Under the pieces are notes generated by a model. The model was not told the origin of the DNA and made no database searches. It was given only the letters and a program-made list of their open reading frames with translations. 64,000 bases of DNA from Mariniphaga sp. Lineage in GTDB: Bacteria; Bacteroidota; Bacteroidia; Bacteroidales; Prolixibacteraceae. The stretch lies in the NCBI GenBank assembly GCA_024636975.1, contig JAGXGA010000055.1, forward strand, positions 62,001-126,000, read 5' to 3'. Each line of letters begins with the position of its first letter. The first letter of the stretch is position 1. Of the stretch, positions 1 to 17,191 are shown one piece after another. A program made the position numbers and the translations under genes.

Positions 1-1
1 A

Positions 2-2101
2 TTCCGGAAAAAGAAAAAAGAAATCTGGCACATTACTGCGGCAACCCATAATTCCAGGTATTCGCAGCGGATGTTCGACAATCATGTTACCAAAGGCGAA
101 CCGGTGTGGCTCTCAGAAAAGGAAGAACTGATAGTAATGGAAACCATTGCCTCAATTGTAAAGTCTGACGAACTGAACATTCTGGAAGTCAATATCTGTG
201 GCGACCACATGCACATGTTGCTTGTATGTACTCAGGAAGAGTTGCCCGGCATTCTGCAAAAAATGAAAAGCATGAGCGCCCGCGAATGCAATATTGCCAT
301 GGGACGCACAGCACCGCAGCAAACACTGGAGCATGCTCCGGCGTCTGTTCACACAGCAGGGGAGCACGCACAGGAACATGCACTGGAGCATGCTCCAGTG
401 TATTCTCCCGTACATTCTCCCGTGCATTCTCCCCTGCGTGGGAAAACACAATTTCACTTGTGGGCACAGAAGTCAGGAAAAAAGCATGTGAATTCCAACG
501 AACAACTGGAAAATACGATGCAATACATCCGAAACAACCGCAAAAAACACCAGCTCCCGGAAATCAAGGCGCTGCAACAAATCATCGCCGGCATGACCTG
601 TTCCCTCGAACATGCCTTCAAAACTGAATATACCGGCGGGTTTGATGTGGTGATTGGAAATCCGCCGTATGTGCAGCTTCAGAAATTGGGAGAAATGGGT
701 AATAAACTTTCAAAATGTAACTACCAGACTTACAATAAATCCGCAGATTTATACTGCCTGTTTTATGAAAAAGGTTGTCAAATACTTAAATCAAAAGGTT
801 ACCTGAGCTATATTACCTCCAATAAATGGTTGCGCGTAAATTACGGAGAGAGTTTGCGGAAATTTCTGACCACCAATATCAATCCAAAAATATTGCTTGA
901 TTTCTCTGGAATTACTGTTTTCCCAGATGCAGTGGTAGATCCTCATATATTAATTTTAACCAATGAACCTTACAAGAAAAAAACCGAGGCATGTGTTATA
1001 AAAACAAGTACTACCGATTTAAAAGCTGTTCTCGAAAAGAACAAAGTCGTCAGGGAATTTTCTTCCGAAAGTTGGACCATCATGTCGTCTGGTGAAGCTA
1101 AAAAGCTGAATCGGATGAAACAAAATGGTACGGAATTGAAGAATTTACCCGTAAACATTAACTACGGAATAAAAACCGGTTTTAATGAAGCTTTTTTTAT
1201 TGATGAAATAATGCGTAAAAAACTTATTGCAGAAGATGCAAAAAGTGAAGAACTTATTAGACCGATGGTCCGAGGTAGAAATATTATTCCTTTTGGTATT
1301 TCAGACAGCGAATATTTAATCAATGTTCATAATGGATTAAAAGAGAAAAATCCACCGTTACCTCCGGTTGAGATTGATGAATACCCTGCAATAAAAAGAT
1401 ATTTGGAGGCATTTTATCGTCAACTCGAAAAGCGTGGAGATAAGGGAGAAACACCTTATAATTTAAGGAACTGTGCATATTTGGAAGAATTCTCTAAACC
1501 CAAAATTCTTTACCCCAACATGACTTCGGTTTTTCCGTTCATGTACGATGAAAGTGGCTTGTTAAGTAACGACAAAAGTTTTATTCTTACCTCAAAAGAT
1601 GATTCAATTTCGTTGTTGTTTCTCACAGCCGTTTTCAATTCATCATTGGCAAAACTCTGGATTTGGTGGAATTGTCCGGAATTAGGAGATAATCGTCGCG
1701 AAATACGAAAAGTTTACTTTGAACATTTCCCGGTTCCAAAGGCAAATAAAGAACAAACAAAAATACTGTCGAAACTGGCACAGGAACGAACGAATTTAAC
1801 TTGTAGTTTAAAGGATGTAATTTCAAAGTTTATACGCTCCATGCAGCGAAAATTTGAACTTGAAAACATGAGCAACAAATTACAGAAGTGGCATTTGCTT
1901 TCGTATCCTGAATTCATAAATGAACTCGGTAAAAAGAAAGTAAAACTAAGTCTTTCGGAAGAAGCCGAATGGGAAGACTATTTCAACGAACAAAAACAAA
2001 AAGCCCTGGCCCTGAAATCCGAAATCGACAAAACCGACCGTGAAATCGACAGTATGGTTTATGAGCTGTATGGTTTAACGGAGGAAATTAAGATAGTCTA
2101 A
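2..2101 (+). CDS. Type IIG restriction-modification enzyme with an in-frame HUH/Y1 (REP-type) transposase domain, 5' partial
   Basis: The reading frame is open from the left edge of the window; the first ATG is at 71 but codons before it (..WHITAATHNS..) fit the start of a Y1 transposase domain, so the gene begins outside. Numbering from the ATG at 71, the first ~165 residues are a Y1/HUH single-strand nuclease: HUH motif H46-M47-H48 and candidate catalytic Tyr152 in QYIRNNRKKH. From residue ~190 the protein is an Eco57I/TaqI-like N6-adenine methylase-endonuclease: motif IV NPPY at 197-200, a RPMVRGRNI-type TaqI-like specificity segment, and a helical C-terminus ending in the usual MVYELYGL. 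Methylase motif I must lie upstream of the window. The Y1 domain therefore sits between methylase motifs I and IV. A linker rich in EHAP/VHSP (residues ~86-121) is encoded by a hairpin. It could be a natural fusion or a transposon that left the frame open. Confidence 0.8.
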   Translation, partial: FRKKKKEIWHITAATHNSRYSQRMFDNHVTKGEPVWLSEKEELIVMETIASIVKSDELNILEVNICGDHMHMLLVCTQEELPGILQKMKSMSARECNIAMGRTAPQQTLEHAPASVHTAGEHAQEHALEHAPVYSPVHSPVHSPLRGKTQFHLWAQKSGKKHVNSNEQLENTMQYIRNNRKKHQLPEIKALQQIIAGMTCSLEHAFKTEYTGGFDVVIGNPPYVQLQKLGEMGNKLSKCNYQTYNKSADLYCLFYEKGCQILKSKGYLSYITSNKWLRVNYGESLRKFLTTNINPKILLDFSGITVFPDAVVDPHILILTNEPYKKKTEACVIKTSTTDLKAVLEKNKVVREFSSESWTIMSSGEAKKLNRMKQNGTELKNLPVNINYGIKTGFNEAFFIDEIMRKKLIAEDAKSEELIRPMVRGRNIIPFGISDSEYLINVHNGLKEKNPPLPPVEIDEYPAIKRYLEAFYRQLEKRGDKGETPYNLRNCAYLEEFSKPKILYPNMTSVFPFMYDESGLLSNDKSFILTSKDDSISLLFLTAVFNSSLAKLWIWWNCPELGDNRREIRKVYFEHFPVPKANKEQTKILSKLAQERTNLTCSLKDVISKFIRSMQRKFELENMSNKLQKWHLLSYPEFINELGKKKVKLSLSEEAEWEDYFNEQKQKALALKSEIDKTDREIDSMVYELYGLTEEIKIV
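323..437. repeat. 12-bp-period inverted repeat (hairpin) inside the Y1 domain coding sequence
   Basis: A perfect 20-bp palindrome, cactggagcatgctccagtg, occupies 381-400. To its right are three 12-bp units of the form cattctcccgtg (401-436). To its left, 12-bp units such as caggaacatgca and ggggagcacgca form the imperfect complement. A half-copy of the palindrome lies at 324-340. The whole block codes for the EHAP/VHSP linker of the Y1 domain. Such a hairpin resembles the REP-type structures recognised by this transposase class. Confidence 0.75.
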
Positions 2102-2123
2102 AACAGTTAAAACAATCTTTGTA

Positions 2124-2279
2124 ATGGCAGAAATAAGTAAAGAATTAGAGGAAAAAATAAAATTACTGGTTAAACAAGGTAAGCCAATTGAGGCAGTTTC
2201 TTTGGTTCAGCAAGAATTACAACTTGGATTAAGAAATTCGAAAGAAATTGTTGATAAATATAGAATCGAGAACAAATGA
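2124..2279 (+). CDS. Small L7/L12 C-terminal-domain-like protein (51 aa)
   Basis: A short ORF of 51 codons beginning MAEISKELEEKI, 22 bp after the R-M gene. The pattern of an amphipathic helix, a short K-x-G-K-x-I-E-A-V turn and a second helix with LRNSKEIVDKYR resembles the ClpS/L7-L12 C-terminal fold found in small stand-alone proteins of the type IEAIKLYRE-x-TGLGLKEAK. Its stop codon overlaps the ATG of the following RhuM-like pseudogene (ATGA at 2276-2279), implying former translational coupling. Function is not known; the fold call is by resemblance only. Confidence 0.5.
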   Translation: MAEISKELEEKIKLLVKQGKPIEAVSLVQQELQLGLRNSKEIVDKYRIENK

Positions 2280-2519
2280 CCAACTCAGTAATACTCCTTT
2301 ACCAAACCCAAGACGGGCAACCCAAAATTGATGTCCGTTTGGAAGATGAAACTGTTTGGCTTTCGCAGGTTCAAATGGCAGAACTTTTCCAGACTACCAA
2401 CAAAACATCAGTTTGCACATTAAAATATTTTTGATGAGGGAGAGTTAGAGGAAAATTCAACTGTCAAGGATTACTTGACAGTTCAAACCGAAGATAAACG
2501 CGAGGTTCAGCAGTTTGAA
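2276..2519 (+). pseudogene. RhuM-family (virulence RhuM / Fic-DOC-associated) gene remnant, frameshifted
   Basis: Translation from the ATG at 2276 gives ILLYQTQDGQPKIDVRLEDE followed by TVWLSQVQMAELFQTT, the characteristic N-terminus of RhuM-family proteins. The frame then breaks and hits TGA at 2432-2434. The family continuation is readable in other frames: NISLHIK from about 2405, then DEGELEENSTVKDYLTVQ from about 2433. At least two frameshifts are therefore present, and nothing of the ~330-residue family C-terminus survives past about 2519. It marks decay at this edge of the island. Bases 2520-2570 encode no recognisable protein. Confidence 0.7.
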
Positions 2520-2570
2520 TGAAGAGGAAGGTTTTCCTAAAACAAAATGGCTGCATGCACCATCCGTTAT

Positions 2571-2900
2571 ACCTTTCCCGAAAATAAAAAATAAAAACAA
2601 CCGCCCGCCAATATAATTCTGCCCCAAAGCATCATTTGTTTAGTAATTCTTTTTTATCTTGCCCTTCAAATTTTAACTGAACCACATGAATAAGAAAAAA
2701 GAACCTGTAAAAACCACCCCATTACATACCGAAGAAAATTTCATAAAGGTCATTTAGTTGTTTTTTAACTTAAAAATATCCGGTTATAAATATTTACTAG
2801 TATTCTAAAATGATTTTTAAGTTGATTTCCTGTATATTATACTTTAAGAGGTAAAGCAGAAATAACTTATAATATAACATACACAAAAGTTGGTGGCAAT
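2571..2900. repeat. Leader repeat copy A (longest of three)
   Basis: This stretch recurs, diverged, at 7515-7690 and 10221-10432. All three share tgtttagtaattctttttt near 2640 followed by a short A+T-rich leader and an ATG opening a Lys-rich reading frame. Copy A encodes MNKKKEPVKTTPLHTEENFI before a stop at about 2757. Its homology with copy C starts further upstream (actttcccgaaaat region), and homology with copy B extends further downstream (agcagaaataa .. cacaaaagtt). A thus looks most complete, with B and C carrying different internal deletions. The remaining bases 2901-3078 before the HerA gene show no further feature. Confidence 0.75.
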
Positions 2901-3078
2901 TTATTATAAAAGACGAGTAATAAAACAAAGATTTAAATTTTTAAAATGTGTGCCATCCCAATTAACTTTATGGACAGAAAAAATCAAATGTTGAGCATGG
3001 TATTAGTCAGACTCAACTAAAAAAATATCATTGTAATGCAAAACAGAATTATATCAATAATCTTAAAATCAGCTATAA

Positions 3079-5196
3079 ATGAGTAATGTCCTAAATCAAA
3101 TTGTCGCCTCTGGAAGTGAATTAGTAAGCTTACTTGGCACTTATAATACATCATTTGTGGGTTATGTTTATGGAATGAGTTTCAACGAAGCTCTTGTTCT
3201 TACGAATGATGATTGGAAACATAGCGTTAATGGCATTCCACATAATTCCTTTCTTGTTGCTGCGGGTTTCAATCCTGCTCGTTTAACAGATGCTGCAGAA
3301 ATAGATAAAGAAGTTGTATTATTACGTGTTCTTGAACCTGTATCCCTTCCCCAAGATAATGACCTTGTGAAAACACGGATTGAACACCACCAAAGACGTA
3401 CATCAGAAGAACAATTCCCAGGAGATGTAAATGATGGACTTGACCCAATAACTGCTGCCGAATTACAATCAGGTGGTCTTCGTTGTAGTATTCTTGGAAC
3501 TTTTTATATGGAAAATGGAGAACTAAGACTGGGAAGTGATATAGAAAATTTCATGACCTTATCAAGAATGAGGGCATATAAACCAACTGAATCGGCTCTC
3601 TCCCTAATTGTAAATCATGTCAATCCTGAAGTAAGGAAAAAAGCTGTAGAAGAAGCTAGAAATGCCGGATTTTTACAAGCACCTTCTCCTATAAATATCG
3701 GCACAATAAGATATACGTCAACTGCAAGAATGCATAGAGGAACTAAACCTTTGGTTGATGTTTTCATTCAACCTACAGATTTCCTAGCTCGCCGTACTGC
3801 TGTTTTGGGAATGACTAGAACAGGAAAATCGAATACTGTAAAGACTACAGTTTCAGCGGTTGCGATAGCTGCTTTAAGAGACAACATTAGAATAGGTCAA
3901 TTGATTTTTGACGTAAATGGTGAATATGCAAATGCAAATCATCAAGATGATGGAAGTTCAATTGCTGAAGTTTTTCCTAAACAAACTATTCGTTATAGAG
4001 CCTTAGAAACCACTGGTTTTGAGGACATACGTCCTAATTTTTATATTGAATGCGCTCAAGCCCTAAATTTAATACAAGCATTATTCAAGAATGATAATTC
4101 ACCATTTAGTGGTCAAGATTTGGACGCTTTTATGTCTACAAATTTGGAAGAACCAGATAAAACAGAAGTTGCCGAGCATACCAGGTGGAAAAGACATAAA
4201 GCGCTTTTTCAATGTATATTATCTCGTGCTGGTTATACAATTCCAACAGGTTTTACTATTGAGGTTCCAATTGCTGCAACACTATTAAACCAAATTAGAA
4301 GGTGGGCACAGGCACAACAGCCTGCAGCTATTATTAACATTCCAACCATTGATAGATTGCCAGCTAGTGAAGCATGTGCTTGGTTTGAACAATTGCGATT
4401 AATTAATATTTCTTTAAAAGAACAACAGCGGAATATTGGTATTCCTCAAATAGGCATTGAGTCGTCCACAAGGGGCTCATCATGGGTAGATCCTACACTT
4501 GAATCATTATTGAATATGTTAGCTAGAGAAAACAGTCGAGGGCAATCATTTGGTGGTTGGAGAGCGATCCAAAAGTATAGACCTTATCATTCCCAACGAC
4601 GAATGGCTGACATTACAAATGAAATAATTGCGCATTTAAATGAAGGACGTATTGTGATCTTGGATTTATCTGTAGGTCCTGTAGAAATACGTGAAGTACT
4701 TTCAAAAAGAATTGCTCATCGAATTTTCGATAGACAAATGGGAGACATGCATGCAGGCAGAGTTCCACAAAATATAGTCTTATATGTCGAGGAAGCTCAT
4801 AATCTGATTGGGAAAAAGGCTGATCTAACAGATACTTGGCCCAGAATTGCAAAGGAAGGTGCTAAGGCTCGGATTGCATTTGTTTATGCAACTCAAGAAC
4901 CTTCTTCAGTACATCCTAATATTTTAGCCAATACGGAAAACTGGTTTGTGACTCATTTGAATAATGATGACGAACTAAGGACATTAGGTAAGTTTTATGA
5001 TTTCAGTGACTTTATTGCATCTTTGAAAGCTGCGCAGGATGTGGGATTTGCAAGAATAAAGACTCTATCAGCACCATTTGTTATACCAACTCAAATTAAC
5101 AGATTTACACCTGCAGCCATCAGGAGACAAATAGAAGAAATTAATTCTAGCATCAAAGGTATTGTTCAAAGTCAGGAGGTTCTCAATGCCTTATAA
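3079..5196 (+). CDS. HerA-type ATPase (DUF87/HAS-barrel), DNA translocase
   Basis: This 705-aa protein has an N-terminal region consistent with a HAS-barrel (residues ~15-100), a Walker A loop GMTRTGKSN around residues 244-252 and a Walker B segment IVLYVEEAHN around 566-575. These are the hallmarks of the HerA/FtsK-superfamily hexameric DNA pump. It starts at ATG 3079 and its last 11 bp overlap the start of the next gene, which encodes a NurA-like nuclease. HerA-NurA pairs act together in DNA end processing in archaea, and HerA-nuclease pairs recur in bacterial anti-phage systems. With the adenine methyltransferase two genes on, a defence role is the likeliest reading, but that is inference. 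Base composition is visibly more A+T-rich than the chromosomal genes after 12.3 kb. Confidence 0.85.
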   Translation: MSNVLNQIVASGSELVSLLGTYNTSFVGYVYGMSFNEALVLTNDDWKHSVNGIPHNSFLVAAGFNPARLTDAAEIDKEVVLLRVLEPVSLPQDNDLVKTRIEHHQRRTSEEQFPGDVNDGLDPITAAELQSGGLRCSILGTFYMENGELRLGSDIENFMTLSRMRAYKPTESALSLIVNHVNPEVRKKAVEEARNAGFLQAPSPINIGTIRYTSTARMHRGTKPLVDVFIQPTDFLARRTAVLGMTRTGKSNTVKTTVSAVAIAALRDNIRIGQLIFDVNGEYANANHQDDGSSIAEVFPKQTIRYRALETTGFEDIRPNFYIECAQALNLIQALFKNDNSPFSGQDLDAFMSTNLEEPDKTEVAEHTRWKRHKALFQCILSRAGYTIPTGFTIEVPIAATLLNQIRRWAQAQQPAAIINIPTIDRLPASEACAWFEQLRLINISLKEQQRNIGIPQIGIESSTRGSSWVDPTLESLLNMLARENSRGQSFGGWRAIQKYRPYHSQRRMADITNEIIAHLNEGRIVILDLSVGPVEIREVLSKRIAHRIFDRQMGDMHAGRVPQNIVLYVEEAHNLIGKKADLTDTWPRIAKEGAKARIAFVYATQEPSSVHPNILANTENWFVTHLNNDDELRTLGKFYDFSDFIASLKAAQDVGFARIKTLSAPFVIPTQINRFTPAAIRRQIEEINSSIKGIVQSQEVLNAL

Positions 5197-6547
5197 TAAG
5201 CAAGCAGCCGGTAAAGGAGGGCATTCAGATTTCGTCCGAAATCCAGATATTCAGAACTTCCTTTCATCATGTGAATATATGAGACCTCCTTCTGAGGGTG
5301 AAGCAAGGGTAATTGCCTCTCAGTTTATTCAAGCACCAGAGGTCAATCCAATAAGATTACCAAAATTTGTTGTTGCATCCGATGCAAGTAAAAACGACAC
5401 ACCAATCAATGATAAGCTTCCTAGCACACAAATTGGTTTTGTTAAAGTAAGCCATGTACTTATAGCAATGGATCGGTATGCTGAACTTATAGATCCAACT
5501 ACGAGATTTGTTGATCCATTTAAAGCTGCTGCTTTGCACCGAAATGCACAACCAATAACTTATGTGCTTCCCGGAAGTAATATAAAATATAAAGGTTCTG
5601 CAACAGTAAAGGATGGTTTTAGACATGCTGTTTATGATCAATTTACTGTAAACCGGCGGGAGGGTACAAGTCGTTTAGTACTCACAGAAACTCTTCTTTT
5701 ATTAAACAATAATAAGTTGACCATTTCTAAATGTCCCTCTTGTTCTTCTAAAATCGATCTTGATTTTTCTTCACAGCAAACTAAACGATCATGCCCTAAT
5801 TGCAAAGTAACTGTATATGCAACAGACTGGCTGCGTCTACATGAGGGCATAAGCGATTTTGGCGATAATACAAGTGCGATGACAAGAATGATGAATGCTG
5901 TAGAGCACCTATTGCTCGGAGCATTTATATTGGAGCTACTCAATAACAGTCTTGCGGCACTTAGTAATATTGCGTTTATTATTGATGGCCCGTTGGCATT
6001 ATTTGGGGAGCCTGCAAAACTGCATATGCGTTTGATGTCACTTATTCATGAAGCAAATAAAAAAATGTCATCCCTAGGTTACGAACCTGTTTTAATTATG
6101 GGGTTACAAAAAACTGGAAATGTGATGGATCATGCTCGATTATTGGAGAATTTTCTGCCTAATGGTGTTATTAAGGTGATTGATGATGTTTACAGACAAA
6201 CTTATATAACTGGATCAGATAAGGTTTCGGAGAATTTTGGGCACGAGACTTATTATGGTCAAGATTTTCTTTTCAAAACAGAAAGGGGCAGAATTTTCAA
6301 CTTTGCTTTACCATATCCCTTTCCTGATAAGGGTTCAAATGGTGGGGCCTTTGCTGTTAGAAAAGTTTTGTTATCCAATTATGGATCATTAATTAAACGT
6401 GCTTGTGACTTGATTAGATATTTTGAACTTGATTTATATGATAATGCTATTGTTCCAGTTGCATTGGCACATAGGCATGCTTCTATAAGTCTTATACCGG
6501 GAGGGAAAGTACTTGATTTGATTGCTAGAGCTGGTCTGACTCGATAA
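5186..6547 (+). CDS. NurA-domain nuclease with an internal zinc ribbon
   Basis: The ATG at 5186 is preceded by a clear AGGAGG (5174-5179) and overlaps the HerA stop by 11 bp, so it is preferred to the upstream TTG at 5162; the product is 453 aa. NurA features are the strand VVASDAS with a candidate metal-binding Asp near residue 66, and a second acidic strand IIDGPLALFG near 265. Strands typical of the RNase H-like NurA fold (VLIMGLQKTG, FALPYPF) follow. Between them, around residues 183-207, sits a CPSC..CPNC zinc ribbon, an insertion not present in archaeal NurA as I know it. It is expected to be the nuclease partner of HerA. The translational coupling supports a 1:1 complex. Confidence 0.75.
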   Translation: MPYNKQAAGKGGHSDFVRNPDIQNFLSSCEYMRPPSEGEARVIASQFIQAPEVNPIRLPKFVVASDASKNDTPINDKLPSTQIGFVKVSHVLIAMDRYAELIDPTTRFVDPFKAAALHRNAQPITYVLPGSNIKYKGSATVKDGFRHAVYDQFTVNRREGTSRLVLTETLLLLNNNKLTISKCPSCSSKIDLDFSSQQTKRSCPNCKVTVYATDWLRLHEGISDFGDNTSAMTRMMNAVEHLLLGAFILELLNNSLAALSNIAFIIDGPLALFGEPAKLHMRLMSLIHEANKKMSSLGYEPVLIMGLQKTGNVMDHARLLENFLPNGVIKVIDDVYRQTYITGSDKVSENFGHETYYGQDFLFKTERGRIFNFALPYPFPDKGSNGGAFAVRKVLLSNYGSLIKRACDLIRYFELDLYDNAIVPVALAHRHASISLIPGGKVLDLIARAGLTR

Positions 6548-6591
6548 TAAAAATTGTTATAATTTTGTAAAAAGGTAATGTCAAGTAAATT

Positions 6592-7476
6592 ATGAATGCA
6601 ACTCCATTAAGATATCCGGGTGGAAAATCTATTATGTCAACATTTTTTGAGGAACTAATAAGGCTCAATTCACTTAGAAATGTGATATACTCAGAACCTT
6701 ATGCCGGCGGAGCTGGCGCTGCTATCAATTTATTACTTAATAATAGCGTCGAAGCAATTCGGATTAATGATGCCTCTAGAGGTGTCTTTTGCTTTTGGGA
6801 TTCATTGATAAATGAAGGGGAAAGATTTTTAGATAAGGTTTATAAGACTGATGTTACATTAAAAGAATGGCAATCTCAAAGATTAATTTTCAAAAATTCC
6901 ACATCTGCAAGTTTTGATTTGGCATTTGCAACTTTTTTTCTTTCGAGGACGAATCGTTCTGGGATACTTGCTGCAGGACCAATTGGTGGGCAAGACGAAA
7001 AAAATCAACAAATTGCTAAGTATAAAATTGATTGCAGATTTAATAAAATTGAGTTGATAAAACGACTTCAAAAAATTATAGATAATAGAGATAAAATATT
7101 TGTTTCAAATTTAGATGCCTTAGTTTTCTTAAAACAAATCCGGGACGAGAATGCTTTTGTATATCTAGATCCACCCTATTACAGTCAAGGTAAAGCACTT
7201 TATTTAAATTATTATAATCATGAAGATCATGTCATGCTAGCAAACTTCTTAAAAAATTCTGCAAACTTTCATTGGGTGTTATCGTACGATAGTGTTCCGG
7301 AAATCCTAGAACTATATTCAGATTTTCATCTTTATGAATTTAAACTGAATTATACAGCGCAGAACTCAAAAAAAGGAACTGAAATACTAACACACTCCTC
7401 AGGTATATCATTCCATCCTATTACGACAATAAAAAAATCAAGTAAAAAAATGAAATTGAGCTCCTTGAAATTTTAA
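6592..7476 (+). CDS. D12-class (Dam-like) DNA N6-adenine methyltransferase
   Basis: A 294-aa protein with the D12 order of motifs: an N-terminal LRYPGGKS, SAM-binding motif I SEPYAGGAG (residues ~34-42), and catalytic motif IV DPPY near 193-196. It should methylate adenine in a short DNA site. The C-terminal ~25 residues are Lys/Ser-rich. The gene lies 44 bp after the NurA-like gene on the same strand, with no terminator between, so the three genes probably form one transcript. A methylase beside a motor-nuclease pair suggests that it marks self DNA or regulates the cassette. An orphan methylase that merely sits here cannot be excluded. Confidence 0.8.
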   Translation: MNATPLRYPGGKSIMSTFFEELIRLNSLRNVIYSEPYAGGAGAAINLLLNNSVEAIRINDASRGVFCFWDSLINEGERFLDKVYKTDVTLKEWQSQRLIFKNSTSASFDLAFATFFLSRTNRSGILAAGPIGGQDEKNQQIAKYKIDCRFNKIELIKRLQKIIDNRDKIFVSNLDALVFLKQIRDENAFVYLDPPYYSQGKALYLNYYNHEDHVMLANFLKNSANFHWVLSYDSVPEILELYSDFHLYEFKLNYTAQNSKKGTEILTHSSGISFHPITTIKKSSKKMKLSSLKF

Positions 7477-7514
7477 ACAATTTAATGTTTTGGAAAATCG
7501 TTCAATTTTTAATG

Positions 7515-7690
7515 ACTAATAAACCAACAAATGTTTAGTAATTCTTTTTTAATCTTACCTCTTAAACTAATCCCCATGAAAACTAAAAAAAAGAAACTGT
7601 AATACCCCAGTACATACCGAAAGAAATTTCATAATGGTCAACGTAGAACAGAAATAAGTTAATTTAATTTCACAAAAGTTACCGCACATA
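7515..7690. repeat. Leader repeat copy B
   Basis: The second copy of the island leader. It shares tgtttagtaattctttttt with copies A and C, then an ATG (7576) opening MKTKKKK before an early stop. It retains the tacataccga..gaaatttcataa..ggtca segment of copy A and the later agaacagaaataa..cacaaaagtt segment, but lacks what lies between them in copy A. It ends immediately before the start codon of the next cassette at 7699. Confidence 0.7.
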
Positions 7691-7698
7691 TTGAAAAA

Positions 7699-8766
7699 AT
7701 GAAATACAGCATTGAGAAAATATATCAAGATTTTGGCCAATTTGATAAGGTTGTAACAATAACCTTTCATTTTGGCAGTCCAACTTTTCAAGAAAACCCA
7801 GAATATATTACTGGAGTTTTTATTTATACACCGATGGAGAGAAAAGAAATGGAAGAATTAATCCAACAAGAAAAAGCCAATGCTGGAAATATTAAGTTTA
7901 AAGAATTACTTAATGAGGTTGATAGTGATAAAAAGGATTTTTTAATAAACCATGGAATTAACTGTGAAGAAATATTTAGCATCTTCGCTTTCCCTGAATT
8001 TAATCAAACAAATGATTTTAATTCAACAGAAACAAGAAAATTAGCAGAACCAAACATTATCGAAGTTGACCTTGATGATGATTTTAATTATGATTCAATC
8101 CTACTAAGTCTAAATGACAGAAAACTTTTAAGGGGTTATAAACTTACCCCAGATGAATCAGCAGAAGATATTGGCACACGAATGAACTATGAGAAAGTAG
8201 ATATCAAAGTGCAGGAAGAATTAAAAGTTCCTATTAGAAAATATTTCTTAAAAACCCGAGAAAGAAACAAAAAAGCGACAGAAGCGGAAATAGATGAATT
8301 ACATTTTTTGGAAACTAAAGAAATTGCGAATAAAATTTCCATCCTGCGTGAAGAAATAAAAAGTGCAGGAATTGCAAAAAAGAATTTTGAAAAAATAAAA
8401 CCACAAATTGAGGAGCTAACTCCTTTTATACTGAAATTTAACGAACGAAGATTGACCCACAAAAAATTCGTGATTTGGTTAAATTACGAAAGGTTTTTGC
8501 ACATATTTCTTGGACATGTTAATGAAGCGAATTTGGGTGGAAAATTTGAGGGTAAAACCAAATTTCAGTATTTAATTGATGACATATTTCGATTAATTGA
8601 AATTGTGCTTGACTTAATTGAAGATGAAATACAAAAACATTTTGCAGAAACACCCGGAAAAAATTTTAAAAGACATGGAGAAATGGCAGTATATTACAAA
8701 GGAGATTACTATGTAATTGCCATTAATACAGACGGTTTGTTAATGACATTTTATAAACGAGAATAA
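7699..8766 (+). CDS. Unrecognised protein, first gene of a two-gene cassette (355 aa)
   Basis: I do not recognise this family. The N-terminal third is acidic with Asp/Glu-rich stretches. Residues ~170-260 are predicted helical and Lys/Glu-rich. The C-terminal ~90 residues look like a compact conserved domain: RFLHIFLGHV, GGKFEGKTKFQYLIDDI, EIQKHF and MAVYYKGDYYVIAI. The paired HxxxGH histidines and the terminal DGLLMTFY are reminiscent of small RNase-like toxin folds, but this is a weak guess. There is no signal peptide or membrane segment. The gene is strongly A+T-rich, starts directly after leader repeat B, and is followed 79 bp later by a gene of almost the same length, so the two probably work together. 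Confidence 0.7.
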   Translation: MKYSIEKIYQDFGQFDKVVTITFHFGSPTFQENPEYITGVFIYTPMERKEMEELIQQEKANAGNIKFKELLNEVDSDKKDFLINHGINCEEIFSIFAFPEFNQTNDFNSTETRKLAEPNIIEVDLDDDFNYDSILLSLNDRKLLRGYKLTPDESAEDIGTRMNYEKVDIKVQEELKVPIRKYFLKTRERNKKATEAEIDELHFLETKEIANKISILREEIKSAGIAKKNFEKIKPQIEELTPFILKFNERRLTHKKFVIWLNYERFLHIFLGHVNEANLGGKFEGKTKFQYLIDDIFRLIEIVLDLIEDEIQKHFAETPGKNFKRHGEMAVYYKGDYYVIAINTDGLLMTFYKRE

Positions 8767-8845
8767 AAATACGTGCGGTAATAAAGTGCAAATCTCATAG
8801 CGGTGTTGATGGTAATTTTAAAACAACTCAGCAAAATTAAAATTT

Positions 8846-9919
8846 ATGGAATTTAACAACTACAACTTTTACTACCCAATCAGGTTTCGTAAAAAAACTA
8901 AAAACTTTGATAATCTTTATATTGAATGGAAAATAATTGAAACTACTTGGGGAAGTGCAAAAAAGCAAGAGAAAGTAATAGACAAGTATTTTGGTAACGA
9001 ATTGTCAGACCAAATTAAAAATTCCAAACTTTTTAGTATTCTGGAATATTGCAGGTTTGAAAAAGCAGGTTCAAATATTTTTCATTTTAAAAAGGAATTG
9101 TTAGAACTACTAGAAAAAACAGATGTATCAGAAATACAAATTGGACAAATTAAATTTCCGTTTCCTAATTTTTATATTTCATTGAGAGAGCTTTCTAAAT
9201 TTTTACCCTCTGATTCTTCTAAAGATGCTATTATTGATGGAATTTACGTTTCAATTATAGATGATTCTGAAGAAGATTTAATTTATAATTATCATGTTAA
9301 CTTTCATATATGTGGATTTTCAGAAAGCCGAAAAGAAGATGAATTCAAACGTAATGAACAAGACATTATGGAACTACCAGCTGGCTTGACTTTTATTAAT
9401 GAAAATTTTACGATTACAGATGCGATTGCCGAAGTTCATAAAATTATGACTGACACTCTTGAAAGCAAAACAAGAAGTAAAAAGGCAGTTGAAAGAGAAA
9501 TTGATTACCAACTTGAAGAATATAACCTCTTAAAGGACAATTTGAATTTAATGGTCAATTGTCTACTTTATCTTTCGTCTGTAAAACCTGATATTGAGAC
9601 AAAATTTGTTGATGGATTGCCTATTCACATTAAAAATAAAATTGAAAAAGTCAATACAAAACATCGGAAAGAAATAGCAGAAAAAGAGGCATTACTTTTT
9701 GGTTATTCTAAAATAAATCTCGTTGGTACTTCTTTTATTAAAGAAAATTCAAATCATCATATAACAGGTGAAATTGCTCCTCATTGGCTTAGAGGACATT
9801 GGAGAAATCAACCATTTGGAAGAAAGTTATCTGATACAAAAATTATTTGGATAAAACCAACTATTGTAAACAAAGAAAAAGGAGAACCACAAAAAGGACA
9901 TATTTACACGAGTGAATAA
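8846..9919 (+). CDS. Unrecognised protein with a C-terminal HWxRGHWR..WIKPT motif (357 aa)
   Basis: A 357-aa soluble protein of unknown function. Residues ~1-200 are mixed alpha/beta and residues ~205-290 form a Lys/Glu-rich helical stretch. The last ~50 residues carry a conspicuous APHWLRGHWRNQPFG followed by KIIWIKPTIV and GHIY. A motif of this shape recurs at the C-terminus of uncharacterised bacterial proteins as I recall, and suggests nucleic-acid or phosphate contact through its His/Arg/Trp residues. It has no membrane segment. It is the second gene of the cassette bounded by leader repeats B and C, and low G+C suggests recent acquisition. Confidence 0.7.
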   Translation: MEFNNYNFYYPIRFRKKTKNFDNLYIEWKIIETTWGSAKKQEKVIDKYFGNELSDQIKNSKLFSILEYCRFEKAGSNIFHFKKELLELLEKTDVSEIQIGQIKFPFPNFYISLRELSKFLPSDSSKDAIIDGIYVSIIDDSEEDLIYNYHVNFHICGFSESRKEDEFKRNEQDIMELPAGLTFINENFTITDAIAEVHKIMTDTLESKTRSKKAVEREIDYQLEEYNLLKDNLNLMVNCLLYLSSVKPDIETKFVDGLPIHIKNKIEKVNTKHRKEIAEKEALLFGYSKINLVGTSFIKENSNHHITGEIAPHWLRGHWRNQPFGRKLSDTKIIWIKPTIVNKEKGEPQKGHIYTSE

Positions 9920-10220
9920 AAAATTGATTCCTATCCCATTAAAAAATTCTTTACACAGTTGAGACTGACAAAAACGGAAACCTTAATTATAGCTATTGAT
10001 GCAGATAAAGGAAATGACTTTTATTATCCGGAGTGCAAATCAGAATTTATTCTTCGAAAATAACTTATCATTAACCTGGAGTTTTTTTTAATTTATTTTT
10101 TTACAAACAATTCCTGCCACGTCCAGCGGATCTTTACACACTGCCAGTTACCAATCAGTATATCCTATTGAACAAACGGGAAGGGGTTCGGGAATTGAAA
10201 AACCATTTGAACGAGCCATA
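9920..10220. other. Non-coding stretch with possible gene remnants between cassettes 2 and 3
   Basis: There is no convincing gene in this 300-bp stretch. A short open frame from about 9926 (ending IDADKGNDFYYPECK..LRK at a stop near 10062) may be the C-terminal scrap of a lost gene; I cannot name it. A T-rich run (10081-10103) follows. The interval 10110-10215 is less A+T-rich than its surroundings but carries stops in the frames I translated. Confidence 0.4.
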
Positions 10221-10432
10221 ATGCTTTTCCATGAAAAAACATAAAACCAACTACCCCCAGCAAGATTCTGCTCAAAAGCACCATATGTTTAGTAATTCTT
10301 TTTTATCTTGCCCCTTAAATTTAAACTGAAACAAATGAATACTAAAAAAGAACCTTATCAGGGTCATATATTCAGTTGTTTTTTTAGCAAAATTATACGG
10401 GTGTAAACGTTTACCAGCGTTTAGAAATGAAC
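10221..10432. repeat. Leader repeat copy C
   Basis: The third copy of the island leader. It aligns with copy A from about 2571 (cttttccatgaaaa region) through tgtttagtaattctttttt, tatcttgcccc and an ATG opening MNTKKEPYQG. It lacks an internal ~45-bp segment of copy A, then resumes at ggtcat..agttgtttttt and runs to a tttactagt/tttaccagc match. Bases 10433-10551 before the next start codon show no other feature. Confidence 0.7.
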
Positions 10433-10551
10433 AAAAAACTAAAGACCAGCGCCTTAATTTTAAAGCAATCAAGGATAAATATATTAACCTGGTGAATATA
10501 ACGTTGGGGACAAATAGAGTGAACCACCTACAATTAAATAACTGATTGAAA

Positions 10552-11019
10552 ATGAAAATATCAATAGGATTAAGAGCAAATCCTAACCAAGTTTGCTACA
10601 GTATAATAAAAAAACAAGAAGATTCTCTTGAGGTGTTTTTAGTTGATAAAATAATCGTTCCTAAATCATTAGAAATTCCCGAACAATTGAAATTTATCAG
10701 AAGTACTTTATTAGATATTATTAATGAAAACAATGTTTCTTTGGCTTGTATTCGTATCTCTGAATCTAGTGCAAGAAAAGTAAACATACCACGAACATAT
10801 CTAGAAGGTGTAGTCCAAGAATTAATAGCAAGTTCTACTATAATAAAATATTACGTCGGGCAAATTTCTAATATAAGTGCGAAATTAGGGATTGAAAGAT
10901 CAGAATTTAAACCATATGCTGAAGGACGAAATGATTTTATGGATTTGGAAATTTGGTCAGAATTAAATCTAGAGGAAAGAGAAAGTATAATGGCTGCTGT
11001 AAGCGCTTTAAATTTGTAA
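10552..11019 (+). CDS. Small protein, possibly RNase H/RuvC-like fold (155 aa)
   Basis: The start is taken at ATG 10552 rather than the TTG two codons earlier. The alternation of a first strand (KISIGLRAN), a second strand (SLEVFLVDKIIVP), a long helix, a central strand SLACIRIS and a following helix is what one sees in RNase H-fold/RuvC-like and DUF3010-type proteins. No clear catalytic Asp lies in the first strand, so if the fold is right the protein may be non-catalytic. It precedes a Hanks-type kinase by 5 bp, so the two are surely co-expressed. Function is unknown. Confidence 0.6.
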   Translation: MKISIGLRANPNQVCYSIIKKQEDSLEVFLVDKIIVPKSLEIPEQLKFIRSTLLDIINENNVSLACIRISESSARKVNIPRTYLEGVVQELIASSTIIKYYVGQISNISAKLGIERSEFKPYAEGRNDFMDLEIWSELNLEERESIMAAVSALNL

Positions 11020-11024
11020 TTAAT

Positions 11025-12074
11025 ATGCCAATAGGATTATATACCGCAGAACTAAATTTTGAGACAATTCGAGAAATAGGACAAGAAGGTCGTAATTCAC
11101 AAGTGTTCTTAGCACATGACAAACAACTTGATGGTGAAATCGTAGTCAAAAAAATTGCGAAAGCACGGTTAGCAAATGAAAACGAATATTATCGTGAATC
11201 TAAAATACTACATGTATCATCTCATTCAAATGTTGTAAGAGTAAATTACGGATGTTCTGATAATGATTATATATATATTGCTATGCCATTCTATAAAAAT
11301 GGCTCATTGAAATCATTAATTGACACAAGACATTTATCAATTAGAGAAGTTATTAGGTACTCTATACAATTTCTTTCTGGATTAAATAATATTCATTCAA
11401 AAGGCTTGATTCATTTTGATGTAAAACCAGACAATATTCTGATTTCAGATTCAAATGAAGCATTGCTCTCAGATTTTGGTTTATCAAAAGCTATGAATAA
11501 TCTTGGATTTGCAAACCCTGATGGAGTATATCGGAAACAAATCCCACCTGAAACATTTTCCAATACAGACAAAACTATAAAGTTTGATATCTATTTAGCA
11601 GGCTTGACATTATACAGGTTACTTAATGGAAATGCTCAGTACTATAGTCAGTTTAACTTTAAAACTCAGCTAGAGTATATTGATGCTATTCAAAATGGGA
11701 ATTTTCCTAATAGGAATAGTTATTTACCTCATATTCCAATAAAATTACAACGGATAGTTAACAAAGCTTTGAATGTAATTCCAGACGATAGACATAAAAA
11801 TGTTCTTGAATTAATTAACGAGCTTAGTGATGTCGATGAAAATCTTGATTTGGTATTCTTTAAGAACGGCAATATTTCAGAATGGAGTCTAAACAAAGAT
11901 GGGCGATTGTATGTTACCACATTAGATAGCAATGATTTAAATAATCAAACGATTGTGACAAATAAAACAATGTTAAATAATAATCGTACAACGAGAGTAA
12001 ATGCATTGTGTCACAATAATTTGACAGCAAGAAACGTTTTATCAAATCTAAAAGCTATATTTAGAGAATTGTGA
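11025..12074 (+). CDS. Hanks-type Ser/Thr protein kinase (349 aa)
   Basis: The start at ATG 11025 lies 5 bp after the previous stop; an in-frame extension further upstream would overlap that gene by 67 bp and is rejected. Kinase motifs are complete: Gly-rich loop IGQEGRNSQV (18-27), Lys42/43 in VVKKI, helix-C Glu58, catalytic loop HFDVKPDN (130-137), SDFG (149-152), PPETF and FDIYLAG. It should therefore be active. The last ~75 residues lie outside the kinase core and have no identified domain. There is no transmembrane segment, unlike PknB-type housekeeping kinases. The tight coupling to a small partner upstream and a 50-aa ORF downstream, in a defence-like island, suggests a phage-response kinase by analogy with Stk2 and kinase-bearing defence systems. 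That role is inference. Confidence 0.85.
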   Translation: MPIGLYTAELNFETIREIGQEGRNSQVFLAHDKQLDGEIVVKKIAKARLANENEYYRESKILHVSSHSNVVRVNYGCSDNDYIYIAMPFYKNGSLKSLIDTRHLSIREVIRYSIQFLSGLNNIHSKGLIHFDVKPDNILISDSNEALLSDFGLSKAMNNLGFANPDGVYRKQIPPETFSNTDKTIKFDIYLAGLTLYRLLNGNAQYYSQFNFKTQLEYIDAIQNGNFPNRNSYLPHIPIKLQRIVNKALNVIPDDRHKNVLELINELSDVDENLDLVFFKNGNISEWSLNKDGRLYVTTLDSNDLNNQTIVTNKTMLNNNRTTRVNALCHNNLTARNVLSNLKAIFREL

Positions 12075-12223
12075 AAATTAAAAATATTACATATAATCCC
12101 AAGGGGCTTAAACGTGCAGACAATGTTGAGAAAGGTAACTGTACTCCAAAGAATGATCTCAATTCTCAGAATATTACCATTACAGTAAAGGATGGTTATT
12201 GGAAAATCTCAAAAAAAATATAA
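12071..12223 (+). CDS. Small protein coupled to the kinase (50 aa, GTG start)
   Basis: A GTG at 12071 overlaps the kinase stop (GTGA) and opens a 50-codon frame rich in Lys and Asn that ends with a strand-like DGYWKISKKI. The overlap argues for translational coupling, so it is probably a genuine third gene of the cassette. No family is recognised. The short sequence makes this call uncertain. Bases 12224-12296 to the next gene contain nothing distinct. Confidence 0.45.
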   Translation: MKIKNITYNPKGLKRADNVEKGNCTPKNDLNSQNITITVKDGYWKISKKI

Positions 12224-12296
12224 CTGTGCCCAATCTGTATATGTCATAGCCGTAAACCACCCGATTCAATGTTTTGTTTGTATTTATAAACCCCCC

Positions 12297-14066
12297 TCAC
12301 CTCTTCGCCAGCGTAAACAAAAACTCGATCCCCCCCTCCGGCTTATTCCTTACCGTGATGTTTCCCTTATGCAGCTGAATGGCATTCTTTACAATGGAAA
12401 GCCCCAGACCAGTGCCGCCGGTTTCACGCATGCGGCCTGAATCGATGCGGTAGAAACGTTCGAAAATGCGTTGCAGGTGTTCCTCGGGAATGCCTATGCC
12501 GTCATCGGAATAAGAAAAATAATGATACTTATTATCTTCCAGGTAATTCTTTATTTCGATGGTTACATTTTCACCGGCATAGTTGATTGAATTTTCTATC
12601 AGGTTCTGAAAAACCGACGATAAAAGGGAATCATTTCCCTTTACAACCACCCCTTCATCGATGTAGAGCTTGCACTTCATATTTTTTACCGCAAGCCTGT
12701 TTTCAAGATTTTCAACTACATCACGAACAATGTTTTTAACTACTACAGGTTTTATTTCAAACAATTCACCCGCATCTTCAATATTATTCAACAGGGAAAT
12801 ATCATTCAGCAACAGGTTGAGGCGCTCAGTCTGACTGTGGGCACGGCTAATGAAATATTTCTGCTTTTCGGCATCAATCCCTGGGTTGTTCATAATCGTT
12901 TCCAGGTAGCCCTTAATTGAGGCCAGGGGGGTCTTCAGTTCATGCGCAATATTTGAGGTTAATTGCTGCTTCAGCAACCTGCGTCTTTCCGGCCGGGTGA
13001 TGTCGGTTATCAGAATCTCAAAGCTTTTATCGGCAAAAATAATACAGAGCAGCTTGAAATATCGCTCATTTTTACTTATTGTATATTCAATCTGCGGCAA
13101 TTCATTCTTGGGAAATTCGATGTCTGAATTAAGGTAATTCTTAAGAAAATTATTGATTTTCTTAAATTCAGGGATTGTAAAAATATGCTCAGCCGATACA
13201 GTTGATGTATGCGAAATCACACTTATGTATTGGATAAAATGACTGTTGGCCAGTATTTTTTCCTTCTGTGAAGAGAAAAAAGAAATGCCTTCATTCAGTA
13301 TGTTCATATGGTTGAAAAACCGTTCTTTTTCCATCTCCAGATCAGTGTGTGTTTTTCGAAGGTTACCATAGATTTTAACAATCTGAGAACCAATCTCACC
13401 CAGCTCATTGCCCGGAAAATCGATGTCGGTGTCAATCGGTTCATTTCTTCCGGCCCTTATCGCAAAATCTTTAAGCTTTGTAATTGAAACGGCCAGCTTT
13501 CGGGTAAAAAAATCTACCAGGAGCCAGATTAAAAGAAAAATAATTACAATGAAAATTATAAAATAGCGTTCAGCTTTCAATAAATTTTCAACCTTTATGT
13601 CATAAATTATTGCTGACCGCACAAAATACCCGTCATAGTATTTGGCAAAATAATAGAATTCCTGGTTTGTAGTACTCGAGCGCCGTACATTTGTACCCGA
13701 ACCTGTGTATAAGGCTTTTTGTATTTCCGGACGCTGAAGGTGGTTTTCCATAGTGGCAACATCAGACACAAAACTATCGTAAAGAACGTTGCCATTCCGT
13801 GCAATGATTGTAATCCGCAGGTTTGGATCGCCAATAAGATAATTCAGCGTATCCGCTTTAGCCAGATTATTCTGTTCAATCAACCGGTAATGTTCAATAT
13901 AATTGCGGGTGATTTCAGTAGCATTCTCCAGCGTATTTTCAAGCTGATTAACTTTATAGCTCTTTTCGCGCTGTAACTGAAAAAACAACACAGCCACAAT
14001 AAAAACAATGAAAACAGTGATAAAGTAAACAAATACTTTTTTCCTAAATGATTTACGTTCCGGCAC
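12297..14066 (-). CDS. phoR: PhoR-like sensor histidine kinase
   Basis: A 589-aa membrane sensor kinase reading from a GTG at 14066; no internal ATG would keep the first membrane helix. Two hydrophobic helices (residues ~10-30 and ~170-192) flank a periplasmic domain. A HAMP region (after TKLKDFAIRAG), a PAS-like linker, the HisKA box IAHELKTPLASIKGY (His near residue 375) and a HATPase core with DDGIGIPEEH and GGTGLGLSIV follow. It is the last gene of the - strand phosphate operon, 17 bp after the response regulator gene. It is thus the likely phosphate-starvation sensor, acting through PstSCAB-PhoU. Confidence 0.85.
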   Translation of the reverse strand: MPERKSFRKKVFVYFITVFIVFIVAVLFFQLQREKSYKVNQLENTLENATEITRNYIEHYRLIEQNNLAKADTLNYLIGDPNLRITIIARNGNVLYDSFVSDVATMENHLQRPEIQKALYTGSGTNVRRSSTTNQEFYYFAKYYDGYFVRSAIIYDIKVENLLKAERYFIIFIVIIFLLIWLLVDFFTRKLAVSITKLKDFAIRAGRNEPIDTDIDFPGNELGEIGSQIVKIYGNLRKTHTDLEMEKERFFNHMNILNEGISFFSSQKEKILANSHFIQYISVISHTSTVSAEHIFTIPEFKKINNFLKNYLNSDIEFPKNELPQIEYTISKNERYFKLLCIIFADKSFEILITDITRPERRRLLKQQLTSNIAHELKTPLASIKGYLETIMNNPGIDAEKQKYFISRAHSQTERLNLLLNDISLLNNIEDAGELFEIKPVVVKNIVRDVVENLENRLAVKNMKCKLYIDEGVVVKGNDSLLSSVFQNLIENSINYAGENVTIEIKNYLEDNKYHYFSYSDDGIGIPEEHLQRIFERFYRIDSGRMRETGGTGLGLSIVKNAIQLHKGNITVRNKPEGGIEFLFTLAKR

Positions 14067-14083
14067 TTTTGCTAATTTTAATA

Positions 14084-14782
14084 TTAAACCGTTTGCTGAT
14101 CCTTAAAACGATACCCATAACCCGATCTTCCCTGTATACAAATACCATAGCTGCCAATCTTCTTTCGAAGCCTGGCTATATTAACATCCACATTTCGTTC
14201 GGTAACTATCACATCATCGCTCCAAATCCGGTTGAGAATTTCTTCGCGGCTGAAAAAATGACCCTTTTGCCTGATAAGCATAACCAGTATTTCAAACTCC
14301 TTACGTGTAAGGTTCACCGGTTCACCATCAATCTGTACCGATTTACTGTTGGTATCCACAACCAATTCATCCGACGACAAATAGTTGTTTTCCAATGAAA
14401 TTGTCTTACCCCGCTTCAACACCGCTCGTACCCTGGCCAGCACCTCTTTAATTGAAAAGGGCTTGGGAATATAGTCATCAGCCCCTACATTAAACCCGGT
14501 AAGGATATCGTTTTCCGTGTTTTTTGCAGTAAGAAAAATAATGGGTACAGTAAGATTCATTTCTTTCCGCATTACCGATGCCATCCTGTAACCGGAGGTA
14601 TCTCCCATCATCACATCAAGCAGAATAAGATCAAAACTTTCAAGGTTTTTCTTTAATGCTGCCTCGGCCGAATGAGCAACTTCAACTTGAAATCCCTCAC
14701 TTGCCAGATTGAACTCCAGGATTTCACATAAATCCCGTTCATCGTCAACCACAAGTATATTATGAATTTTCAACTCGCTCAT
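14084..14782 (-). CDS. phoB: PhoB-like response regulator
   Basis: A 232-aa OmpR/PhoB-class regulator. The receiver domain carries the acidic pair VVDDE (11-15), phospho-acceptor Asp56 in LLDVMM and Lys in IPKPFSIKE. The C-terminal winged helix contains TRKEFEILVMLI and NVDVNIARLRKKIG. It lies between phoU (8 bp gap) and the histidine kinase gene in the phosphate operon, which is the basis for the phoB name. A second PhoB-like regulator exists at 35600, so which one controls the Pho regulon cannot be settled from sequence alone. Confidence 0.88.
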   Translation of the reverse strand: MSELKIHNILVVDDERDLCEILEFNLASEGFQVEVAHSAEAALKKNLESFDLILLDVMMGDTSGYRMASVMRKEMNLTVPIIFLTAKNTENDILTGFNVGADDYIPKPFSIKEVLARVRAVLKRGKTISLENNYLSSDELVVDTNSKSVQIDGEPVNLTRKEFEILVMLIRQKGHFFSREEILNRIWSDDVIVTERNVDVNIARLRKKIGSYGICIQGRSGYGYRFKDQQTV

Positions 14783-14790
14783 ATCTTTTA

Positions 14791-15477
14791 TTATTCTATG
14801 TTTTTAGTGTGTCTGATATCTCTTCCTTCAATGGAATAAACAGCTGCTTCTGCAATGTTGGTGGCATGATCGCCAATCCGTTCGATGTTTGCCACTACGC
14901 CATTCATACTGATAAAACTGTTGAGCAGCTGCTTGTTCTCATCCGAGAGTTTACTTTTTTTGATGGCCTTTTTCATCATCTTATGATTCAGTTCATCAAT
15001 AACGGCATCATTCTTAATGGTCCAGATGGCAAACTCCTTATCATCGGTAGTAAAAGAAACCAGGGCTTTGTTTACCATATTGGAACTTTGAATGTACATA
15101 TTCGACACCACATCGGCCATTCCTGAGTAGATTTCCGGAATTTTGATGTTATGTATTAACCGGACGATGTTTGTCACCCGATCGCCAATCCGCTCAAGGT
15201 TGATAATGATCCGGTAGCAGGAAATAAGCTTCCGTATATCGGAAGCCACCGGCTGGTACAACACAATGGTATTAACAATTTTATCGCTCAGCTTCACCTC
15301 CGACTTGTCGATTTTAGCCTCATTGTCGAAAATCTCATTGTACACTTCCTCGGGTACTATATTTTCGCCCGAAGCAACAATTCTTTCCAGCAAATCGAGC
15401 TGATGCAGTACCAGGTTTGCAAACTCCTCGAAATCGGTCAGAATATTATTTATTGCAACGTCTTTTTTTGATGTCAT
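14791..15477 (-). CDS. phoU: PhoU phosphate-signalling protein
   Basis: A 228-aa all-helical protein with the two PhoU repeats: helices containing NLERIGDRVTNI in the first half and NIERIGDHATNIAEA in the second. These E-x-I-x-D signatures bind metal clusters. PhoU dampens PstSCAB transport and PhoR signalling when phosphate is plentiful. The gene is 30 bp downstream of pstB on the same strand. Confidence 0.93.
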   Translation of the reverse strand: MTSKKDVAINNILTDFEEFANLVLHQLDLLERIVASGENIVPEEVYNEIFDNEAKIDKSEVKLSDKIVNTIVLYQPVASDIRKLISCYRIIINLERIGDRVTNIVRLIHNIKIPEIYSGMADVVSNMYIQSSNMVNKALVSFTTDDKEFAIWTIKNDAVIDELNHKMMKKAIKKSKLSDENKQLLNSFISMNGVVANIERIGDHATNIAEAAVYSIEGRDIRHTKNIE

Positions 15478-15507
15478 TTGTGTTTCTTTTAAGTGGATAT
15501 AAACAAA

Positions 15508-16287
15508 TTAACCGAATTTACCGGTAAGGTATTCTTCAGTACGCCGGTCTTTAGGCCGGGTAAACATATCTTTGGTTTTACCATATTCCACCAATTCGCC
15601 AAGGTACATAAACATCGAATAATCTGAAATACGCGCTGCCTGCGACATGTTGTGCGTGACCATTAATATAGTATAATTTTCCTTTAGCGATACCATCAGG
15701 TCTTCAATTTTCGATGTGGCAACGGGGTCGAGCGCCGAAGTGGGCTCATCGAGCAGAATGACTTCGGGACCAAATGCCAGGGCACGTGCAATGCAAAGCC
15801 GCTGCTGCTGTCCCCCTGAAAGGAATGTCCCTTTTTTATAAAGCCCGTCTTTTACTTCATCCCAAAGGGTAACATCGCGCAGCGAACGTTCAACGATCTC
15901 ATCGCGCTTCGAACGCTTCAGGTGGATCCCGTTTAATTTATAACCAGCTATCACATTATCATAAATGCTCATGGTAGGAAACGGGTTGGGCCGCTGAAAC
16001 ACCATGCCCGTCATACGCCGTAACTGGATGGCAGGCATTTTAAAAATATCCTTGCCGTTCAAATCGATTGAACCTTTTGTTTCAATGGTTTCGTACAGTT
16101 CATGCATGCGGTTCACTGCCCTTAACAACGTGCTTTTCCCGCAACCCGATGGCCCCATTATGGCCGTTACACTGTTTCGTTTGATATCGGCCGAAACATC
16201 GTTCACTGCGTACTTTCCCTTATCGTATGAAACAAAAAGGTTTTTGATGGAAAGGACAGGATCTTTTATAGTTTTTATATTATCCAT
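15508..16287 (-). CDS. pstB: PstB phosphate ABC transporter ATPase
   Basis: The start is placed at the ATG at 16287 (259 aa), since the upstream ATG at 16335 would overlap pstA and adds a non-conserved tail. ABC ATPase motifs are Walker A GPSGCGKST, Q-loop at VFQRPNPFP, signature LSGGQQQR, Walker B VILLDEPTSALD and the H-loop VTHNM. It powers phosphate import with PstA and PstC. It sits between pstA (10 bp) and phoU. Confidence 0.95.
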   Translation of the reverse strand: MDNIKTIKDPVLSIKNLFVSYDKGKYAVNDVSADIKRNSVTAIMGPSGCGKSTLLRAVNRMHELYETIETKGSIDLNGKDIFKMPAIQLRRMTGMVFQRPNPFPTMSIYDNVIAGYKLNGIHLKRSKRDEIVERSLRDVTLWDEVKDGLYKKGTFLSGGQQQRLCIARALAFGPEVILLDEPTSALDPVATSKIEDLMVSLKENYTILMVTHNMSQAARISDYSMFMYLGELVEYGKTKDMFTRPKDRRTEEYLTGKFG

Positions 16288-16297
16288 CGAGGTGCTT

Positions 16298-17188: not shown

Positions 17189-17191
17189 CTG

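Follow-up and report, generated by a model that had tools for sequence, protein, structure and literature searches.

The window analysed here is a 64,000-nucleotide stretch of the Mariniphaga sp. genome (5.76 Mb in 67 contigs), corresponding to bases 62001–126000 of contig C14, and near its left end three forward-strand units are each preceded by a copy of one leader sequence. The stretch begins with a likely remnant, an ORF (71..2101, +) joining an IS200-like Y1_Tnp fragment to the 3′ half of a type IIG restriction-methylase, and with a RhuM fragment (2276..2434, +), recognized from its own sequence and from its match to other RhuM copies nearby, that lies just 5′ of leader copy A. Copy A (2516..2890, +) is the fullest and comprises the tail of a second repeat, M1, a promoter-like core, M3 (2608..2697, +; 85.4 bits against profile R1), a probably vestigial ORF opening with ATG, and an AT-rich tail. 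It precedes a HerA-led unit (2903..7514, +) that encodes a HerA/DUF87-type ATPase (3079..5196, +; Pfam DUF87, 7.1e-15, the NCBIfam and PADLOC HerA models being below cut-off or weak), a partner gene (5186..6547, +) designated NurA in the preliminary description, which has one weak PHROG match of unknown function and 0 matches in Pfam, NCBIfam and PADLOC, and a D12-class adenine methyltransferase (6592..7476, +; PADLOC PD-Lambda-5_B). Leader copy B (7515..7682, +) contains the core (7510–7587, 40.7 bits in the profile search) without M1 and shows an internal loss relative to A. It is followed by B1 (355 aa; 7699..8766, +), which has no Pfam, NCBIfam, PADLOC or PHROG match and two distant homologues in 394 other genomes of the class, and by B2 (357 aa; 8846..9919, +), which has no named match and one PHROG match (E 0.0046) of unknown function. 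Leader copy C (10175..10430, +; core at 10257–10346, 82.1 bits in the same search) includes a degenerate M1, assigned by eye and from an alignment of six copies, and heads C1, a RuvC-like resolvase family protein (10552..11019, +; phrog_3875, 8.7e-31), C2, a Ser/Thr protein kinase related to PD-T4-6 and mad6 (11025..12074, +), and a 50-aa ORF at the right edge without a Pfam match (12071..12223, +).

That the three copies are related had been proposed from the sequence alone, and pairwise alignment places their similarity far above chance: the local alignment scores of 109 for A/B, 140 for A/C and 65 for B/C compare with shuffle means of 22.5, 22.9 and 21.7, and none of 300 dinucleotide shuffles scored as high for any pair. 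Identity is 77% across 130 columns for A/B and 81–83% across 121 nt for A/C. The shared word tgtttagtaattctttttt and the Lys-rich starts at a downstream ATG, both noted in the preliminary description, are present as described there, and its statement that the flanks pair A with B and A with C over unequal lengths holds as well. The A-B tail match lies at 2851–2891 (equalled in 1 of 500 shuffles) and the A-C tail match at 2756–2813 (equalled in 0 of 500), and no match was found between the tails of B and C, for which 483 of 500 shuffles were equally good. Because the tails pair A with B and A with C in different segments, the leader looks best preserved in A, with B and C appearing as forms that underwent different losses.

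The preliminary description counted three copies and took the leader to be fixed in place; a DNA search combined with a profile search of the whole genome revises both points, since A, B and C are three of 12 copies, seven of which lie in a ~36-kb island on contig C14, four on contig C52 and one on contig C17. The 12 copies score 40.7–85.4 bits against a next-best match of 16.9 bits in the 5.76-Mb genome, although their high scores arise partly by construction, profile R1 having been built from these same copies. All 12 face a gene or remnant on the same strand, at a distance from profile match to gene start, as taken here, of −8 to 381 nt. In the island, the copies head a DUF1016 gene (C14:47083), a RhuM fragment (C14:50287), a type IIG tail (C14:56756), a second DUF1016 gene (C14:58714), HerA (C14:64608, copy A), B1 (C14:69510, copy B) and C1 (C14:72257, copy C); elsewhere they head a CBS protein (C52:47920), a small membrane protein (C52:50421), a GH9-like protein (C52:54198), an unassigned protein with a weak PDC-S11 match (C52:59958), and a small ORF followed by a radical SAM protein (C17:609). 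By our count, 11 kinds of mostly unrelated genes stand behind the 12 leaders. The genes headed by two of the 12, both in the island, are truncated: the RhuM sequence at C14:50483 shows no usual start codon when followed upstream as far as the next stop, and the leader at C14:56756 ends 8–9 nt ahead of a 415-bp duplicate of the IIG tail. The junctions are thus not uniform, which counts against a clean site-specific system and against the earlier proposal of the leader as a dedicated target of recombination; some junctions would instead be later deletions or illegitimate joins. Among the genomes searched, the leader is private to its source: the best matches were 21–22 bits in four of 139 other genomes of the family and 24 bits in two of 392 other genomes of the order, as against 40.7 bits for the weakest copy, in searches whose stricter filters and few scored candidates per genome could let weak copies escape. 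A DNA search of 99 relatives returned only short, chance-like pieces, and the leader pattern had 0 matches in genome_contigs and viral_contigs, from which records near the source genome were possibly excluded.

The ~36-kb island extends from a TonB-type receptor gene (ending at C14:37995) to phoR (C14:74297) and contains SoFic, VapBC-like pairs, DUF1016, RhuM, HigBA, MqsA/Panacea, the IIG remnant, HerA, the kinase, and a Gp49-like toxin gene with an HTH partner. No such island was seen on the 3′ side of phoR in genomes G007, G003 and G005 (identities judged by eye; none is a close relative). Repeat M1 has 15 matches in the genome, all within C14:45965–64602 and all in + orientation, where it also punctuates toxin-antitoxin and defence units, and most island leaders extend upstream into it (in A from about window position 2516). 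M1 was tried as a protein end and rejected (0 of 59 other genomes). Repeats M2 and M4 are also present in the island; M2 is a palindrome-rich repeat of ~150 nt with seven copies (L047, C14:45735–53607). For 60 island ORFs, the 25 Pfam families listed, out of 35, include no recombinase; given the RuvC-like family of C1 and the Y1_Tnp fragment in the ORF at 71–2101, recombination-related genes are not wholly absent. Rfam gave 0 matches in five loci, a tRNA insertion site was rejected (0 in six loci), and no DUF1016 match was confirmed in viral_contigs. Megablast against plasmids returned a single 60-base Fic match for L047 and none for window positions 1–12300. A KefB-like gene at C14:40493–42472 is 90% identical to a gene in a genome of another family, compared with 36–44% in its own family, and on this comparison was likely acquired laterally.

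The most conserved part of the six aligned island copies is the core of ~60 nt, where windowed conservation is 0.77–0.88, compared with 0.54–0.75 upstream and with 0.69, falling to below 0.5, after the ATG. PMC7366714 gives the Bacteroidota promoter as TAnnTTTG near −7 and TTTG near −33. In the leader, TAYCTT occupies the −7-like place in 11 of 12 copies, with the final TG of TAnnTTTG missing, and TTTG occupies the −33-like place in 6 of 12, so that the core is similar to a promoter of this phylum and may act as one. In one C52 copy, codon 3 of the ORF is a stop; this stop and the drop in similarity after the ATG indicate that the Lys-rich ORF is probably vestigial. In the C52 and C17 copies, similarity begins at profile positions 4–7 and mostly fades past the core, with remnants of the ORF region retained in two C52 copies. 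A promoter followed by a start codon fits the earlier suggestion that the leader might be the 5′ end of a lost gene.

The limits of one unit are fixed by an outside relative. Locus L135, from a Bacteroidota MAG, matches window positions 2903–7514 at 87% identity, and a second local alignment gave the same ends; with softer scoring, the right end was unchanged and the left end drifted into AT-rich sequence. These ends adjoin the edges of the leaders, as A ends at ~2890–2900 and B starts at 7515, and the A-B tail homology stops near 2891, where the HerA unit starts. The leader was not found in L135 or in 30 other loci (best score 10.9 bits). Since the homology is bounded at 2903 and 7514 and L135 lacks the leader, the HerA-led unit is, as judged from these alignments, a discrete insert that adjoins leaders at both ends and is present elsewhere without one. 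It has its own upstream region and therefore need not depend on the leader. Relatives of HerA were found at 29 loci, with a homologue of the partner gene beside HerA in 26 and a methyltransferase in 17, a recurrence that spans phyla; within the flanks covered, B1, B2, C1 and C2 were beside none of the 29, several of which are short contigs. The boundaries of the HerA unit and this lack of co-occurrence support the earlier description of three separate cassettes, each led by a leader copy, rather than one set that always travels together. The HerA unit is the only one for which an outside relative is close enough to fix both ends. When the 20-kb array stretch was searched in the L135 genome, three genes matched at 66–68%, and no leader was found. 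A GTTGG-type boundary motif (window position 2887, L135:8782) was rejected because no consistent pattern was seen by eye in 1.1 Mb of DNA, and inverted repeats at the unit edges were treated as chance, similar-quality 12-mers being abundant in the same region.

These observations are best accommodated, at about even confidence, by a reading in which foreign units were stacked beside a promoter-bearing leader that was duplicated by ordinary recombination. The leader (M1, the promoter-like core M3 and the vestigial ORF start) would be a resident segment that was copied in front of one foreign unit after another in a co-oriented stack beside phoR, most likely through homologous recombination between leaders or duplicative insertion of a leader together with its unit, after which only the promoter core would have been kept. 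If only the core was conserved after copying, the leader-headed units probably share expression. The order of events, the recombination route and promoter activity are parts of this reading that we infer. The 91% duplication of a VapBC segment together with its upstream repeats, and the lack of a comparable island beside phoR in the three relatives, speak for it. The absence of M1 from B, the truncated genes behind two of the leaders, the presence of TTTG in only half of the copies, a −7-like box without the final TG, the separate upstream region of the HerA unit and the availability of an outside relative for a single unit count against it. Of the earlier idea that cassettes were added successively beside a fixed leader, the stacking is thus supported by the HerA unit and the fixed position is not. 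A bolder version, rather doubtful on present evidence, is an integrase-independent stacking platform in which a captured defence unit inserts where a leader ends and a fresh copy of the leader is made, with this happening at more than one genomic locus; each new unit would then arrive with a ready promoter. For the wider question of how defence islands acquire and express further systems when no recombinase is known, a private leader heading successive units, one of them with externally fixed ends, offers a concrete place to seek duplicative insertion and co-expression of stacked defence genes.

Two rival explanations are each unlikely. The copies might be no more than regulon sites with a shared promoter, kept or copied without any role for leader recombination in the stacking; the core is indeed their best-conserved part, and the similarity of the C52 and C17 copies, which precede ordinary genes (CBS, GH9, radical SAM), shares one starting point and is mostly lost beyond the core, but homology among the island copies extends past any promoter to take in M1 and the vestigial ORF, remnants of the ORF region persist in two C52 copies, and the L135 unit ends exactly at two leader copies. 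Alternatively, a leader-plus-gene unit could have been repeatedly duplicated in tandem, with its genes later replaced or deleted. In favour of this, a VapBC segment of 1,061 columns including its upstream repeats is duplicated at 91%, 415 bp spanning the IIG tail and the RhuM start are duplicated at 88%, and there are two DUF1016 genes and several RhuM copies or fragments; against this account, the headed genes are mostly unrelated, and leaders occur on two other contigs.

The single orientation and toxin-antitoxin content of the array, together with the Arr, RibD_C reductase and glyoxalase genes on C52, recall a degraded integron (CALIN) whose attC sites would be unusual, yet this is highly improbable: GTTRRRY/RYYYAAC occurs at any aligned column in at most one copy of the 15 M1, 7 M2 or 12 M3 sequences, five of seven folded M1, M3 and M4 sequences had z of at least −0.6 (one M1 −1.4), two folded M2 copies gave −3.2 and −1.3, and the best TIGR02249 match reached 121.6 bits against a cut-off of 265 in a genome that is 95% complete, with weak matches in 14 of 14 controls too. 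The integron reading was rejected, as neither attC boxes (in M1, M2 and M3) nor an integron integrase above cut-off was found. Xer/dif modules or REP/RAYT-driven spread are very improbable as well; a Y1_Tnp fragment is present and one M2 copy folds strongly, but the transposase is a fused fragment, M2 was seen only in the island among three contig stretches searched, and the best dif score of 18/25 in the island equals that in an equal-length control. Without an excess of dif-like sites over the control stretch, the dif-module reading was also rejected.

The closest known idea is the "mobile promoter", a term reportedly used by Matus-Garcia in 2012 and van Passel in 2014 for homologous promoter-like sequences that precede non-homologous genes in one genome. 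In this respect the 12 copies before 11 kinds of gene are alike; the array differs in that most copies head defence or toxin-antitoxin units in one co-oriented stack and in that the leaders are joined to a second repeat, and its setting would be an unusual one. The mobile-promoter papers are cited in PMC8049555. Integron arrays and CALINs, as described in PMC9024848, likewise consist of co-oriented toxin-antitoxin and accessory units separated by repeats, whereas here attC boxes and an integron integrase were not found and the repeat bears a promoter-like core ahead of the unit. Acinetobacter plasmid dif modules (PMC13141974) are stacks of units, in many cases toxin-antitoxin pairs, with short repeated sites between them; there the sites are 28-bp pdif sequences, and here the repeat is a longer leader without a dif-like match. 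The array layout was not found in the literature searched, most subscription papers lying outside its scope.

Several further features accompany these loci. A second leader-headed cluster at C52:47920–60040 (L049, L050) contains Arr, RibD_C, SnoaL-like, DUF4256, glyoxalase, GH9 and GH3 genes. In this genome as in that of L135, pst/phoU genes are found close to the HerA-led unit (L135:1989–6551; window positions 12297–19130), and among the 29 HerA loci only L135 has a pstC-pstA-pstB-phoU cluster. In both of the viral contigs in which a relative of the C2 kinase was found (L166 and L167), a C1-type RuvC-like protein is encoded directly 5′ of the kinase, and the pair at window positions 10552–12074 is a candidate two-gene system.
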